Under the pieces are notes generated by a model, which was given only the letters and a program-made list of their open reading frames with translations, had not been told where the DNA came from and did not search any database. Both the position numbers and the translations under genes were made by a program. DNA of 64,000 bases, taken from NCBI RefSeq assembly GCF_016595275.2, contig NZ_JAENIQ020000003.1, positions 372,001 through 436,000 of the forward strand, written 5' to 3'. Origin of the DNA: Corynebacterium pygosceleis (GTDB taxonomy: Bacteria > Actinomycetota > Actinomycetes > Mycobacteriales > Mycobacteriaceae). Of the stretch, positions 54,584 to 62,012 are shown in pieces (within the stretch, counting starts at the first letter, position 1; each line of letters opens with the position of its first letter).

Positions 54584-56701
54584 ATGCTCGGTTGGCGTGA
54601 CCCCCGGAGAATCGACGATCTGATCCCCAAGAAGAACGCCACAGCGTTGAAGAAGGCCTTCGGGTACACCACCGTCGATGAACTGCTGCTGCACTTCCCC
54701 CGGGCCTGGTCGCACCACGGTGCCGGGGTCAACGTCGACGATGCGGAACCCGGCGACACGGTCACCTGCGTGGGTACCGTCATCACGGCGAAAACGGGGT
54801 ACACCTCCACGGGTAAACAGATGCACCGCATCACGATCAGCGACGGTGCGAACACGCTCTCGGCCACCTTCTTCCAGGCCAGACTCCCCGCCAGACAGCT
54901 GAAGGCCGGGGTCCGCGCCATGTTCTCCGGCAAACTCCGGGTGTTCCGCGGTCAGGCCGAGATCTCCCACCCCGCGTACGTCATCCTCCCGGAACCCGGT
55001 CGGAGACAGTTCGCCACCGGTTCCCTGCGTACCCTCGGAGACTTCGGTTCCCCGGAGGAACTCGAGGAACTGCTGTCCCAGCTGGAGTACCTCGCGGTCT
55101 ACCCCGGGAAGAAGGGGGTGACCAGTTGGGCGCTGCTCGGTGCCGTGAACGCCGTGCTCGCCGAGACCCCGGTGATTCCCGAGCCCCTCGACACCGTGCC
55201 CGACGACATGGTCGGATTCGATGAGGCGATCCGCGGAATCCACCAACCGGACGGGCGTGGCCCGGAGCCCTTCATCGAGCGTCTGAAATACAACGAGGCA
55301 CTGTCGTTGGCGCTCGTCATGGCCCTGCGGCGGGCGGACGCCGCCGCCCGCGTCGCACCCGCCTGCCCCGAGGATCCGGACGGACAGAAGGCGACGATGC
55401 TCGCCAACCTGCCGTTCCCGCTGACGGACGGCCAGCGGGGGGTCGGTGCCGACATCACCGGGGAACTCGCGGCCCCTGTGCCGATGAGCAGGCTGCTCCA
55501 GGGGGAGGTCGGTTCCGGTAAGACGATCGTCGCACTTCTGGCCATGCTCCAGGTCGTCGACTCCGGCAGGCAGTGCGCGCTGCTCGCCCCCACCGAGGTG
55601 CTCGCCGTCCAACACGCCCGCAGCATCACCGCAACCCTCATGGCGGCCGGCGTGCCCGCCACCGTGACCGTCCTGACCGGATCGATGACCACGGCAGCGC
55701 GTCGACGGGCACTCCTCGACACCGTGTCCGGTCAGACGGACATCGTCGTCGGCACCCACGCCCTGATCCAGGACGGAGTGGAGTTCTTCGACCTCGGCCT
55801 GGTTGTCGTCGACGAGCAGCACCGATTCGGTGTCGAACAGCGTGATCGTCTGCGTGGCGCGGGCCGCGACGGCATGACCCCCCATCTCCTCGTCATGACG
55901 GCCACACCCATTCCCCGCACCGTGGCGATGACCGCATTCGGTGATCTCAGGGTCTCCACCCTCCGCGAACTCCCGGGTGGCAGACGCCCGATCACCAGTG
56001 CGGTGGTGCCGGGTGCCCGGCCCGCGTGGGTGAAGCGGGCGTGGGAACGCATCCGTGAGGAGGTGGGGGCGGGGCGTCAGGCGTTCGTCGTCTGCCCACG
56101 GATCGATGGCGAGGGCGGTGTCACCGAGACCTTCGGGATCCTCCGGGACCGGATCTTCCCCGAACTCACCGTCGGACTGCTCCACGGCCGGATGCACGCC
56201 GAGGAGAAGGACCGGGTGATGTCCGACTTCGCCGCAGGGGGCGTCGACATCCTCGTGTCCACCACCGTCATCGAGGTCGGTATCGACGTACCCAACGCCA
56301 CGGTCATGTACATCCGTGAGGCCGAGAACTTCGGTGTGAGTCAGCTGCACCAGCTGCGGGGCCGGGTCGGACGTGGCGGACACGCCTCACTCTGTCTCCT
56401 GCACACGGACCAACCCGAGGACTCCGATTCCTTCGCGAGGGTCCGTGCCGTCGCGGCGACGACCGACGGATTCCGGTTGGCGGAACTCGATCTGCGGTCC
56501 CGCCGGGAGGGTGACGTCCTGGGGACGGCGCAGTCCGGCGGGCGACGCCACGTCCGGCTCCTCGACCTCATCGACGACGCCCCGATGATCGAACGTGCGG
56601 CGCAGGATGCGACGGACATCGTCGCCCGGAACCGTGTGCTCGCCGAACAGCTGGTCAGTGACGTCGAGATCGAGGAACAGGAATTCATCGACAAGACATA
56701 G
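54584..56701 (+). CDS. recG: ATP-dependent DNA helicase RecG
   Basis: 705 aa. Branch-migrating helicase that processes forks and Holliday junctions. The wedge/OB domain occupies about 50-180; helicase motifs are GEVGSGKTIVALL (Walker A), VVDEQHRFG (DEQH box), MTATPIPRT (motif III), STTVIEVGIDVPN and QLRGRVGRGG (motifs V and VI). It starts 4 nt after the DAK2 gene, so the two are one operon. Confidence 0.96.
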   Translation: MLGWRDPRRIDDLIPKKNATALKKAFGYTTVDELLLHFPRAWSHHGAGVNVDDAEPGDTVTCVGTVITAKTGYTSTGKQMHRITISDGANTLSATFFQARLPARQLKAGVRAMFSGKLRVFRGQAEISHPAYVILPEPGRRQFATGSLRTLGDFGSPEELEELLSQLEYLAVYPGKKGVTSWALLGAVNAVLAETPVIPEPLDTVPDDMVGFDEAIRGIHQPDGRGPEPFIERLKYNEALSLALVMALRRADAAARVAPACPEDPDGQKATMLANLPFPLTDGQRGVGADITGELAAPVPMSRLLQGEVGSGKTIVALLAMLQVVDSGRQCALLAPTEVLAVQHARSITATLMAAGVPATVTVLTGSMTTAARRRALLDTVSGQTDIVVGTHALIQDGVEFFDLGLVVVDEQHRFGVEQRDRLRGAGRDGMTPHLLVMTATPIPRTVAMTAFGDLRVSTLRELPGGRRPITSAVVPGARPAWVKRAWERIREEVGAGRQAFVVCPRIDGEGGVTETFGILRDRIFPELTVGLLHGRMHAEEKDRVMSDFAAGGVDILVSTTVIEVGIDVPNATVMYIREAENFGVSQLHQLRGRVGRGGHASLCLLHTDQPEDSDSFARVRAVAATTDGFRLAELDLRSRREGDVLGTAQSGGRRHVRLLDLIDDAPMIERAAQDATDIVARNRVLAEQLVSDVEIEEQEFIDKT

Positions 56702-56734: not shown

Positions 56735-57613
56735 CTAGTACACGGTCAGACCACGGGCCCGGAACTTCTCCCGCACGGCCTCCGTCGCTTCGGGGGACGG
56801 GGGTTTCGTGTCCTCCAGGCTGTAGTGCATGCCGAGTTCGTGCCACTTGTCCCGGCCCATGTTGTGGAACGGCAGCACCTCGACCCGCTCCACCGAGTCA
56901 CTCCACCGGGAGACGATGTCGCACACCTTGTCCACGTTGTCGGGGTCGTCGGTGAGTCCGGGCACGAGAACGAACCGGATCCAGATCTTCTTTCCGTGTG
57001 CCGCGAGGCGGTCACCGAAGTCGATGGTCGGCTGAAGTTCCCGGCCGGTCACGCGACGGTAGGTGTCCGGGTCCCCCGACTTCACGTCGAGGAGGAACAG
57101 GTCGATCGAGTCGAGGTCGGTGTCGGTCAACCGTGAACCGAGGTATCCGGAGGTGTCCACGGCGACGTGGATCCCGGCGTCGTGACAGGCTGTGAACACC
57201 CGCCGGGCGAACGCGATCTGGAACAGCGGTTCGCCGCCCGAGATGGTCAGCCCACCGCCGGAGGCCCGGAACACCGCCCGGTAGCGCTTCACCTTGGCGA
57301 TGATGTCCTCGGCGGTCTCCAGGGTGCCGGTCCGCATCTCCATCGTGTCCGGATTGTGGCAGTACCGGCACCGCAACGGGCAACCGGAGAGGAACAGCGT
57401 CATCCGGGTTCCCGGACCGTCGACCGCGGTCACCAGCTCCCAGGAGTGGACCAGGCCGACATCACCCGTGCGCCGGGCCGCGAACAGCTTGCCGCGGCCC
57501 TCGGCGTCGTCGGGCAGAACGGAATGGTCACCACCGATGCCCTCGGCGGTTCCCCGTATCCTCGGCCCCTCGGAGGGGGCGACGACGACGGGGGAGTTGA
57601 TGCCGTCGGACAT
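56735..57613 (-). CDS. pflA: pyruvate formate-lyase-activating enzyme
   Basis: 292-aa radical SAM enzyme that abstracts H from the glycyl-radical Gly of pyruvate formate-lyase. The CxxxCxxC cluster motif is Cys78-Cys82-Cys85 in SGCPLRCRYCHNPDT; GGLTISGGEPLFQ and VDTSGYLG follow. The N-terminus is about 45 residues longer than Escherichia coli PflA, with no recognised motif. GGAAAGGAG precedes ATG 57613. It is last in the pfl operon, 44 nt after the glycyl-radical gene. Confidence 0.94.
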   Translation of the reverse strand: MSDGINSPVVVAPSEGPRIRGTAEGIGGDHSVLPDDAEGRGKLFAARRTGDVGLVHSWELVTAVDGPGTRMTLFLSGCPLRCRYCHNPDTMEMRTGTLETAEDIIAKVKRYRAVFRASGGGLTISGGEPLFQIAFARRVFTACHDAGIHVAVDTSGYLGSRLTDTDLDSIDLFLLDVKSGDPDTYRRVTGRELQPTIDFGDRLAAHGKKIWIRFVLVPGLTDDPDNVDKVCDIVSRWSDSVERVEVLPFHNMGRDKWHELGMHYSLEDTKPPSPEATEAVREKFRARGLTVY

Positions 57614-57657
57614 GGTGCTCCTTTCCGTACGTCCGTTCCTCAGCGGGTTGTGGTGCG

Positions 57658-57909
57658 TCAGGCGCCCTCGTGGAACGTCCGGGAGATGACGTCGAGCTGC
57701 TGCTCCTTCGTCAACTTCACGAAGTTCACGGCGTATCCGGACACCCGGACGGTGAGGTTCGGGTACTTCTCGGGGTTCTCCACCGCGTCCTCGAGGGTCG
57801 AGCGGTCGAGGACGTTGATGTTGGCGTGGTAGAGACCGGAACCGGAGTGGGTCGCGGCCCGGTTGGACTTCATGTCGGCGAGACGTTCGTCGAAGGAGAG
57901 TGAGGACAT
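57658..57909 (-). CDS. stand-alone glycyl-radical domain of pyruvate formate-lyase
   Basis: 83 aa. Residues about 24-83 correspond to the extreme C-terminus of one-piece [22 protein letters not shown] then RVSGYAVNF, with the radical Gly at residue 58, then [15 protein letters not shown]. The first 23 residues are a new N-terminus. AAAGGAG lies 9-15 nt before the ATG, so it is translated as its own protein. It resembles GrcA/YfiD, the rescue subunit for oxygen-damaged PFL, but here the main PFL gene lacks this domain, so it must be an essential partner. It lies 44 nt after the core gene. Confidence 0.9.
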
Positions 57910-57953
57910 GGGTGGTGCTCCTTTACGTTGTGGTGGTTGGGGGGGGCTGTGGG

Positions 57954-60053
57954 TCAGTCGTTGTCATCGATGATGAATCCGGCGTCGAGGACACCGACGA
58001 GATTCCGGATGCGTTCATCGGGGGTCCGGCCGAGACCGGAGGGCGTGATGGTGTTGGTCAGGGAGATGCCGTCCAGGGCGTCGTTGTAGTCGAGCTTGCC
58101 GACCGACAGCATCGAGGCGACCATGCCGTGCGAGTCGAGGGCGTTCTCCGGGTTCGCTCCCGGGGAGAACGGCGTACCGGCCTTGTGCCCGGAGGGGAAG
58201 GAACCCGTCGCCTTGCCGTACACGACGTTCGAGGTGATCGTCAGCACCGACTGGGTCGGGATGGCGTCCCGGTACATCGGGATCTCCTTGATCTTCGCCA
58301 TGACGGTGTGCACGATCGTCGCCGCGATGTCGTCGGCCCGGTCGTCGTCGTTGCCGTAGATCGGGAAGTCTCCCTCGGTGCGGTAGTCGACGATCAGCCC
58401 GGTCTCGTCCCGGACGGGGTAGACCTTCGCGTACCTGATCGCGGAGAGTGAGTCCGCGACGATGGACAGGCCGGCGATGCCGCAACCCATCGTGCGCTGG
58501 ATGTCCGAGTCGTGCAGGGCCATCTCCACCGCCTCGTAGGCGTAGCGGTCGTGGCAGTAGTGGATGATGTTCAGGGCCTCGACGTAGGTGCCGATCACCC
58601 AGTCCAGCATGTCCTCGTACTTGTGCCACACCTCGTCGAAATCGAGCGGTCCGTCACCTTCGACGGGGGAGAAACCGTCGACGATCTGTTTGCCGGAGAC
58701 CTCGTCCCGGCCGCCGTTCATGGCGTAGAGCAGTGCCTTGGCGGCGTTGACGCGGGCTCCGAAGAACTGCATCTGCTTGCCGACGGTCATGGGGGACACG
58801 CAGCAGGCGATCGCGGCGTCGTCACCCCAGTGGGAGCGGATCTGTTCGTCCGACTCGTACTGGATCGAGGAGGTCTCGATGGAGATCGCCGCGCAGAACT
58901 CCTTGTACCCCTCAGGCAGTGCCGGATCCCAGAACACCGTGATGTTCGGCTCGGGTGCCGGGCCGAGATTGCGCAGGGTCTGGAGCAGACGGAACGCGGT
59001 CTTCGTGACCAGGGGCCGACCGTCCTCACCGAACCCGGCGTCGGACCAGGTGGCCCAGTAGGGGTCGCCGGAGAAGATCTGGTCGTAGTCGATGGTGCGC
59101 AGGAACCGGACGATCCGCAGTTTCAGGACGAGCTGGTCGATGAGCTCCTGCGCGTCCTCCTCGGTGATCCGACCCGCGGCCAGGTCACGTTCGACGTAGA
59201 TGTCGAAGAACGGCGACAGGCGACCGAAGGACATCGCGGCACCGTCCTGGCTCTTCACCGAGGCGAGGTAGCCGAAGTAGGTCCACTGCACGGCCTCCTG
59301 TGCCGTGGTGGCGGGCCGGGAGATGTCGAACCCGTAGTCCGCCGCCATCTTCTTCAGCTTCTTCAGGGCCTTGATCTGTTCGGAGTGTTCCTCGCGGTAG
59401 CGGCACCAGTGCTCGCTGAACGGGTTCGATCCCACCGCGTGCTTCGCGGCCTCCTTGTCCTCGATGAGGCGGTCGACCCCGTAGAGAGCGACACGACGGT
59501 AGTCACCGATGATGCGGCCGCGCCCGTAGGCGTCCGGGAGCCCGGTGACGATGTGGGAGGACCGGGCCGCGCGGATACGCGGGGTGTAGATCTCGAAGAC
59601 GGCGTCGTTGTGGGTCTTGCGGTAGCGGGTGAAGATCTCCCTGATCCGCTCGTCGGGTTCCTTGCCCGCCTCACGGATGGCCTGTTCCACCATCCGCCAG
59701 CCGCCGTTGGGCATCATCGCGCGTTTGAGCGGGACGTCCGTCTGCAGGCCGACGACGACATCGTCGTCGTCGGAGATGTAGCCGGCGGGGAAGGCGTCGA
59801 TGTCGGCGGGGGTGTGCGTGTCGACGTCGTACACCCGCCGCCTGCGTTCCTCGGCGAGGTAGTCCTTCTCCAGGGTGTCCCAGATCCGCAGTGTCTTGGC
59901 GGTGGGACCGGACAGAAATCCGGCGTCACCGGTGTAGGGGGTGTAGTTCCGCTGGACGAAGTCGCGGATGTCGATGGTGTCACACCAGGGACCGGGCTCG
60001 AAGCCCTCCCAGGCGGAATCGGTGTCGGTGCTTGCCGGGGCGAAGGTGGTCAC
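57954..60053 (-). CDS. pflB: pyruvate formate-lyase core lacking the glycyl-radical domain
   Basis: 699 aa. Converts pyruvate and CoA to formate and acetyl-CoA under anoxia. WEGFEPGPW and NYTPYTGD at the N-terminus, [18 protein letters not shown], and the catalytic pair Cys417-Cys418 in [13 protein letters not shown] are present. The chain ends at [12 protein letters not shown], about 60 residues before the radical Gly of one-piece enzymes; that segment is the next gene. GTG 60053 is chosen because GGAAAGG lies 12 nt upstream and homology starts shortly after; ATG 60074 is possible. First gene of the pfl operon. Confidence 0.93.
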
Positions 60054-60864: not shown

Positions 60865-61527
60865 ATGGGTCTGACCCGCATCATTTCCGGCGAAGCCCGG
60901 GGACGCAGGATCAAGGTACCGCCGGCCGGGACACGGCCGACCAGTGACCGGGCCCGGGAGGGGCTCTTCTCCTCGTTGCAGGTGAGATTCGGTTTCGCCG
61001 GGAAACGGGTCCTGGACCTGTTCGCGGGCTCGGGTGCGCTGGGGCTCGAAGCCGCCTCACGCGGTGCGGAGGAGGTCGTCCTCGTCGAGAACAACCGGGC
61101 CGCAGCGGACACGATCCGGCACAACGCGACGGTGGTCGGTCACCCGAACGTCACCGTCGCGGAGATGAAGGCGTCCGTGTACGTCTCCGGCGCTCCGCGG
61201 GGTCACTTCGACATGGTTCTCGCGGATCCCCCCTACGATCTCGCCGATGAAGCGGTCGTGGAGATGCTGACCGCTCTGGTTCCCGCGCTCGCCGACGGTG
61301 CCGCCGTCGTCGTCGAACGGCACACCGATTCTCCGGAGACCGCCTGGCCGGACTGCTACGTGCCCACGACGCAGAAACTGAAGAAGAGGACCTACGGTCG
61401 GGCGAGAATGGACATGGCGGTGTTCCACGCCGATCTCGTCGACACCGGCACCGGCGCCGACGGTTCCGCGGGCGCGCCGGGGGCCGGCACCGGTGCGGAG
61501 GCCGTGGACCACGGGGAGGGCGAGTGA
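60865..61527 (+). CDS. rsmD: 16S rRNA (guanine(966)-N(2))-methyltransferase
   Basis: 220 aa. TRIISGEARGRRIKVPPAGTRPT is the conserved N-terminus, VLDLFAGSGALGLEAASRGA binds SAM and ADPPYDL is the catalytic D/NPPY motif. The C-terminus adds a Gly/Ala/Thr-rich tail of about 30 residues. GGAGGAG precedes the ATG. It overlaps coaD by GTGA. Confidence 0.94.
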   Translation: MGLTRIISGEARGRRIKVPPAGTRPTSDRAREGLFSSLQVRFGFAGKRVLDLFAGSGALGLEAASRGAEEVVLVENNRAAADTIRHNATVVGHPNVTVAEMKASVYVSGAPRGHFDMVLADPPYDLADEAVVEMLTALVPALADGAAVVVERHTDSPETAWPDCYVPTTQKLKKRTYGRARMDMAVFHADLVDTGTGADGSAGAPGAGTGAEAVDHGEGE

Positions 61528-62012
61528 CCGTGCGTGTCGTCTGCCCCGGCTCCTTCGATCCGGTCACCATGGGCCACCTGGACATCTTCCGTCGTGCCGC
61601 GGACCAGTTCGGTGAGGTGACGGTGCTCGTCACCGTCAACCCGAAGAAACAGGGTCTGTTCAGCATGGAGGAACGCGTCCGGCTCATCGAGGAAGCCGTG
61701 GACGGGATGCCCGGCATCACGGTGGACACCTGGTCCGGTCTGCTCGTCGACTACACCACCCGAAACGGTGTCACGGCCCTGGTCAAGGGCCTGCGTTCCG
61801 GGATCGACTACGAGTACGAGCTGCCGATGGCGCAGATCAACCGCCGGTTGTCCGGCGTGGACACCTTCTTCCTCCTCACCGACCCGAAGTACGGTTACAT
61901 CTCCTCCACCCTCTGCAAGGAGGTGGCGCGCCACGGAGGTGACGTCTCGGGCATCCTCCCGCCGAACGTCGCCACCGAGATCCGGGCGAAGTTCGCCGGC
62001 GACGTGAGCTGA
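61524..62012 (+). CDS. coaD: phosphopantetheine adenylyltransferase
   Basis: 162 aa. Penultimate step of coenzyme A synthesis. CPGSFDPVTMGHLDIF holds the T/HxGH nucleotidyltransferase motif, GLRSGIDYEYE follows and ISSTLCKEVA is the C-terminal phosphate-binding motif. GTG 61524 is translationally coupled to rsmD. Confidence 0.96.
   Translation: MTVRVVCPGSFDPVTMGHLDIFRRAADQFGEVTVLVTVNPKKQGLFSMEERVRLIEEAVDGMPGITVDTWSGLLVDYTTRNGVTALVKGLRSGIDYEYELPMAQINRRLSGVDTFFLLTDPKYGYISSTLCKEVARHGGDVSGILPPNVATEIRAKFAGDVS

Follow-up and report, generated by a model that had tools for sequence, protein, structure and literature searches.

For decades, work on pyruvate formate-lyase (PFL) has dealt with a single-chain enzyme, to which the stand-alone glycyl radical domain GrcA is an accessory. 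The minus strand of a 64,000-nucleotide stretch of Corynebacterium pygosceleis DNA, which we call the window, encodes a PFL core, then an 83-aa protein carrying a glycyl radical domain, then pflA (Table 1). This locus raises the question of whether the first two genes together encode one enzyme made of two chains. The preliminary description had read them as a two-gene PFL, and the sequence bore out its coordinates, the 44-nt gap, the small gene's own AAAGGAG and the RVSGYAVNF motif on the 83-aa protein. This Shine-Dalgarno (SD) sequence is located 8 nt upstream of the ATG of the small gene. The GTG at 60053, where the core starts, is preceded by AAAGG, and further in-frame ATGs are present upstream. 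The pfl operon (56735-60053) is flanked by recG (54584-56701, +) and rsmD/coaD (60865-62012, +), neighbours that were named by sight. Its GC content of 63-67% is close to the 66.7% of the window and thus gives no sign of a recent import. A promoter-like site was looked for near the operon, and none was found.

Table 1. Features of the pfl locus, given in positions of the window.
Feature	Position	Strand	Description
pflB core	57954..60053	-	catalytic chain of PFL, 699 aa, from GTG to TGA; has Cys417-Cys418 but lacks the radical glycine
Intergenic gap, 44 nt	57910..57953	-	contains the small gene's own SD AAAGGAG (sequence)
Radical subunit, 83 aa	57658..57909	-	leader of about 24 residues (1-24), then glycyl radical domain with Gly58 in RVSGYAVNF
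pflA	56735..57613	-	radical SAM activating enzyme, 292 aa, own AAAGGAG

The larger protein has the same catalytic core as the one-piece PflB of E. coli (PDB 1H16, 2PFL), with 384 of 695 residues identical in the residue map (55%). The cysteine pair that the preliminary description had assigned to the active site aligns with E. coli Cys418-Cys419, and E. coli Arg176, Trp333, Phe432 and Arg435 are retained, R180 and R434 of the core corresponding to R176 and R435. The core therefore has the adjacent active-site cysteines and the pyruvate-site arginines of the TIGR01255 family, the roles that C418/C419, R176 and R435 have in PFL. In the profile search, it matched positions 1-678 of 744 of TIGR01255 with 979.1 bits, so that this chain alone falls just below the curated cut-off of 994.2 for a full-length, one-chain enzyme, and the radical glycine (RVSGYAV) that members carry in the same chain is found on the separate 83-aa protein. 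Likewise, the Pfam matches of the core are PF02901 (658 bits) and positions 1-65 of PF01228 (Gly_radical), whereas the small protein matches positions 65-106 of PF01228; the Gly_radical family is thus cut between two genes. The core ends at approximately E. coli residue 698. It had been described as stopping about 60 residues before the radical glycine; the number is right for the residues missing up to the C-terminus, but Gly734 itself lies only about 36 residues beyond the core end. After its leader, the small protein aligns colinearly with the C-terminal 58 residues of E. coli PflB, which, unlike the split pair, has the radical glycine within the same chain and no leader helix. PflA scored 298.4 bits against TIGR02493 (cut-off 231.75). 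From these sequences, we consider it probable, at roughly 85%, that the core and the small protein constitute an obligate two-chain PFL, and very likely that they would function in trans.

Alternatively, the small protein could be a spare part of the GrcA/YfiD type that repairs an intact PFL after cleavage by oxygen. NCBIfam has it as a member of a family called 'autonomous glycyl radical cofactor GrcA2' (NF008341; 158.5 bits, cut-off 145), and the domain resembles E. coli GrcA (PDB 6owr, E 3e-20). However, the protein stays below the cut-offs of both GrcA/YfiD (TIGR04365; 87.9 against 170 bits) and GrcA3 (NF038360; 98.1 against 158 bits), and its cut site, after NLVGVLDAG, is not the GrcA3-type site before DNLVxMxD. 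The intact PFL that accompanies a GrcA/YfiD protein in the same genome is also missing here. In the C. pygosceleis genome (2.6 Mb, 9 contigs, 98% complete), the sole PFL-like match was the core itself, and neither a second full-length pflB, named earlier as a point to check, nor any further PFL-type radical glycine beyond that of the small protein was found. This agrees with the true and conserved split enzyme that had been proposed. Because the genome shows no other PFL, there is nothing intact for the small protein to repair.

A Gly_radical match occurred in 123 of 242 Corynebacterium genomes, 5 of which have an NrdD match only, leaving 118 genomes with PFL pieces. This frequency contradicts the earlier remark that PFL is not usual in corynebacteria. 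As for expression, the available part of a published study lists a formate acetyltransferase in C. pseudotuberculosis proteomes (PMC5463331). Among the 117 Corynebacterium loci that we examined, comprising the window and 116 others, 116 are split and the remaining one is an in-frame fusion. With 116 of 117 loci alike, the split is far beyond chance. The start codon of the small gene is ATG in 113 split loci and GTG in 3, its product has 83 aa in 112 of the 116, and 110 of 112 distinct Corynebacterium sequences have an SD-like 4-mer no more than 20 nt before the start, compared with 24% of random 20-mers.

Could a broken gene or a sequencing error have separated the two frames? In C. phocae, the core next to an intact small gene has indeed decayed, and only roughly the final 106 codons of its frame are still open. 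However, the relative frames of the core and the small gene in the 116 split loci, which come from different genomes, include all three possibilities (48/29/39), and the gaps between the genes range from 3 to 287 nt with a median of 40. A point frameshift, which the preliminary description had already argued against, is excluded by these frames and gaps. Together with the small gene's own SD and a leader under purifying selection (see below), they make the chance of a broken gene practically negligible. A single chain could still be produced by programmed frameshifting or stop readthrough, and a natural single chain does exist: the fusion from Corynebacterium sp. Marseille-P4321 (L199, 1684-4092) joins core, linker, leader and radical domain in frame, and retains AAAGGA before an inner ATG. 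L199 might make both the fused chain and the free small chain. Nevertheless, the use of all three frames, gaps of up to 287 nt, and a mean nucleotide identity of 35% in the 40 nt upstream of the small-gene start, against 67% in the leader, leave no slippery site or pseudoknot common to all loci, and such recoding is hardly credible.

The C. pygosceleis genome also encodes a one-piece NrdD (G000:C2:631686-633380), a 611-aa frame with the GY motif RVMGY near its C-terminus. This NrdD was missed by the Gly_radical search of the genome. Its presence would allow the core to be a relic and the small protein to work with NrdD. But this NrdD is unsplit and supplies a GY motif itself, so the cell has a further glycyl radical enzyme that is made as a single chain. 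Moreover, the core keeps its catalytic residues, and in 116/116 split loci it adjoins the small gene, which is followed at no more than 1500 nt by a pflA-type radical SAM motif, making a relic very unlikely. Fifteen complete Gly_radical matches in the genus end like class III NrdD, as Pfam confirmed for 8 of the 8 tested. Among the matches listed, no Corynebacterium genome has a one-piece PFL beside the small gene, the complete matches there being NrdD, which is a further argument against repair.

The same split, for which a search among actinobacterial genomes had been suggested, occurs in at least 40 loci of other genera. Among the 80 named loci listed, 58 are split, the small gene coming immediately after the core, with 18 from Corynebacterium and 40 from elsewhere, including Actinomyces, Schaalia, Rothia, Dermabacter, Brachybacterium, Helcobacillus, Propionibacterium, Trueperella, Arcanobacterium, Varibaculum, Actinotignum, Actinobaculum, Pseudactinotalea, Zimmermannella and several MAGs. 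Those unsplit among the 80 are the L199 fusion, one one-piece Rarobacter locus and 20 one-piece loci of Bifidobacterium, Gardnerella and Scardovia. The split is rare in even draws, where 2 of 396 genomes (phylum) and 3 of 394 (class) scored above the cut-off of GrcA2 and the majority of the remaining matches were one-piece frames. Because such draws hold few GrcA2 genomes, the split outside Corynebacterium is known mainly from the 80 listed loci.

In the radical-domain tree, which was built from 58 rows and 58 columns and whose bootstrap had not settled, the split proteins grouped with the one-piece PFLs of Bifidobacteriaceae and Rarobacter (99/96), and this group was placed inside actinobacterial PFL (99/98). 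E. coli GrcA went with E. coli PflB (99/97), which argues against repair within the limits of few columns and the long branch of GrcA. The core tree (54 rows) recovered the same group of split, Bifidobacteriaceae and Rarobacter sequences with 100/100. According to both trees, the small gene was born by fission of an actinobacterial PFL and not by recruitment of a GrcA, and a role in repair is very unlikely. On the frames, the gaps, the kept residues and the lack of an intact PFL, we set aside frameshift, readthrough, relic and repair alike. The Bifidobacteriaceae and Rarobacter enzymes are the nearest one-piece relatives; the sequence of their radical domain is almost the same, and core and domain are joined directly, with no leader, stop or start in between. 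The free core tree contains 5 changes of state in total, and the one-piece Rarobacter adjoins split Cellulomonadaceae MAGs (95/91). The PFL of Rarobacter faecitabidus has either been cleanly re-fused or kept its ancestral form. Topology tests on the core did not reject all splits in one clade (p-AU 0.33), and a tree with Bifidobacteriaceae outside was equally likely (p-AU 0.496).

Neither the one-piece relatives nor the three phage GrcA proteins compared have anything that corresponds to the leader (residues 1-24). Over 125 distinct sequences, F/Y6, R9, M13 and R17 are conserved at 99% and K14 at 94%, and the dN/dS ratios of 0.32 for the leader and 0.073 for the radical domain indicate that the leader is under purifying selection. 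In a model of the small chain alone, which is of modest confidence (pLDDT 70), residues 6-19 are helical. This split-specific helix most likely docks the small protein on the core or on PflA. E. coli GrcA/YfiD and the GrcA of T4-like phages are likewise stand-alone glycyl radical domains that can complete PFL in trans, according to the part of the study available (PMC8683613), but their partner is an intact PFL, whereas the partner core here has no radical domain. They also differ in having an N-terminus of about 60 residues in place of the 24-residue leader, and they belong to a separate clade in the domain tree. The same part of that study reports that an E. coli core cut at residue 695, approximately the natural core end here, equals the wild type in catalysis after activation of YfiD on this core (PMC8683613). 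Binding in this tPFL:YfiD pair was too weak for ITC and activation was 32-fold below that of cPFL:YfiD, so a core with a separate radical domain is not automatically efficient; the N-terminal half of YfiD mattered for binding and activation, not for catalysis (PMC8683613, available part). By analogy, the leader helix may solve the docking problem seen with the truncated E. coli core and YfiD.

A second type of split was found in another class of the same phylum, which we take to be Coriobacteriia, where 37 of 149 genomes exceeded the GrcA3 cut-off with a protein of 80-odd residues and a one-piece frame of 757-849 residues was present in 8 further genomes. Core and radical domain are again encoded by adjacent genes, the core being directly upstream of the GrcA3 gene in 21/21 loci. 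Unlike the Corynebacterium type, however, the core ends after LGK with its own variable tail, about 20 residues earlier, and the small chain retains the DNLVxMxDxY helix. In the core tree, GrcA3-type cores are far from Corynebacterium cores, at a place where long branches meet. The GrcA3-type split is independent of the Corynebacterium type.

On this basis, the two-chain enzyme may be pictured as follows. The core would fold as a PFL barrel with both cysteines, ending where the glycine-bearing strand-loop-helix unit would start. The small protein would provide this unit in trans, its strand of 10 residues completing the barrel, while its leader helix docks on the core or PflA. PflA would generate the radical on Gly58, and the loop would bring Gly58 beside Cys417-Cys418. 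Small chains cleaved by oxygen could be discarded and the core reused. AlphaFold modelled the L199 fusion poorly (mean pLDDT 62) and left the radical domain unplaced, so that the model is informative for the fold class only; its matches in the best 50 rows of Foldseek with VIA-align were all glycyl radical enzymes, E. coli PFL among them. More tentatively, the radical subunit might be exchangeable, as the preliminary description had surmised, and serve as a cartridge: docked by its leader and cut by O2 at the glycine, it would be expelled and a new one would take its place on the same 75-kDa core, the split having been selected at two sites in two lineages of one phylum. We regard this extended proposal as rather doubtful, although the benefit of a disposable cartridge is plausible: oxygen damage might cost the cell only a small piece. 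Excess synthesis of the small chain, which the cartridge idea predicts, was unsupported by SD strength, as the SD of the small gene was stronger than that of the core, taken as the best of several candidates, in 34 of 107 cases, weaker in 70 and equal in 3.

The small protein is already in NCBIfam as GrcA2, and, as far as sequences can tell, the split PFL itself is real, widespread and conserved. No published account of a split PFL or of GrcA2 was found in the open-licence PMC literature. One-chain PFL appears to be absent from a large group of Actinomycetes that are facultatively anaerobic and in many cases host-associated. The GrcA2 family name wrongly suggests repair and omits the partner core without a radical domain; a subunit that is required is consequently annotated by pipelines as if it were an optional cofactor, an error by which metabolic models can be misled. 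Should the pair work, action of the GrcA kind would be the normal enzyme and not just repair, and the pair would offer a clean system for studying how activase and core recognize a separate radical domain, two steps that both worked badly for the truncated E. coli PFL in the available part of its report (PMC8683613).

PDB 38LB is a 739-residue formate acetyltransferase with a GrcA3-type core tail, and 38LA, which ends with LGKED, perhaps belongs with the second split type. PFL cores without a radical domain have thus already been solved structurally, and the two entries suggest that other groups are working on the second split type. Neither was among the matches of the small-protein search or the best 50 rows of the structural search (Foldseek, VIA-align) with the L199 model. 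Three IMG/VR viral contigs encode stand-alone radical-domain proteins of about 76-80 residues, counted from the first Met, which are closer in likeness to the second split type than to E. coli GrcA.
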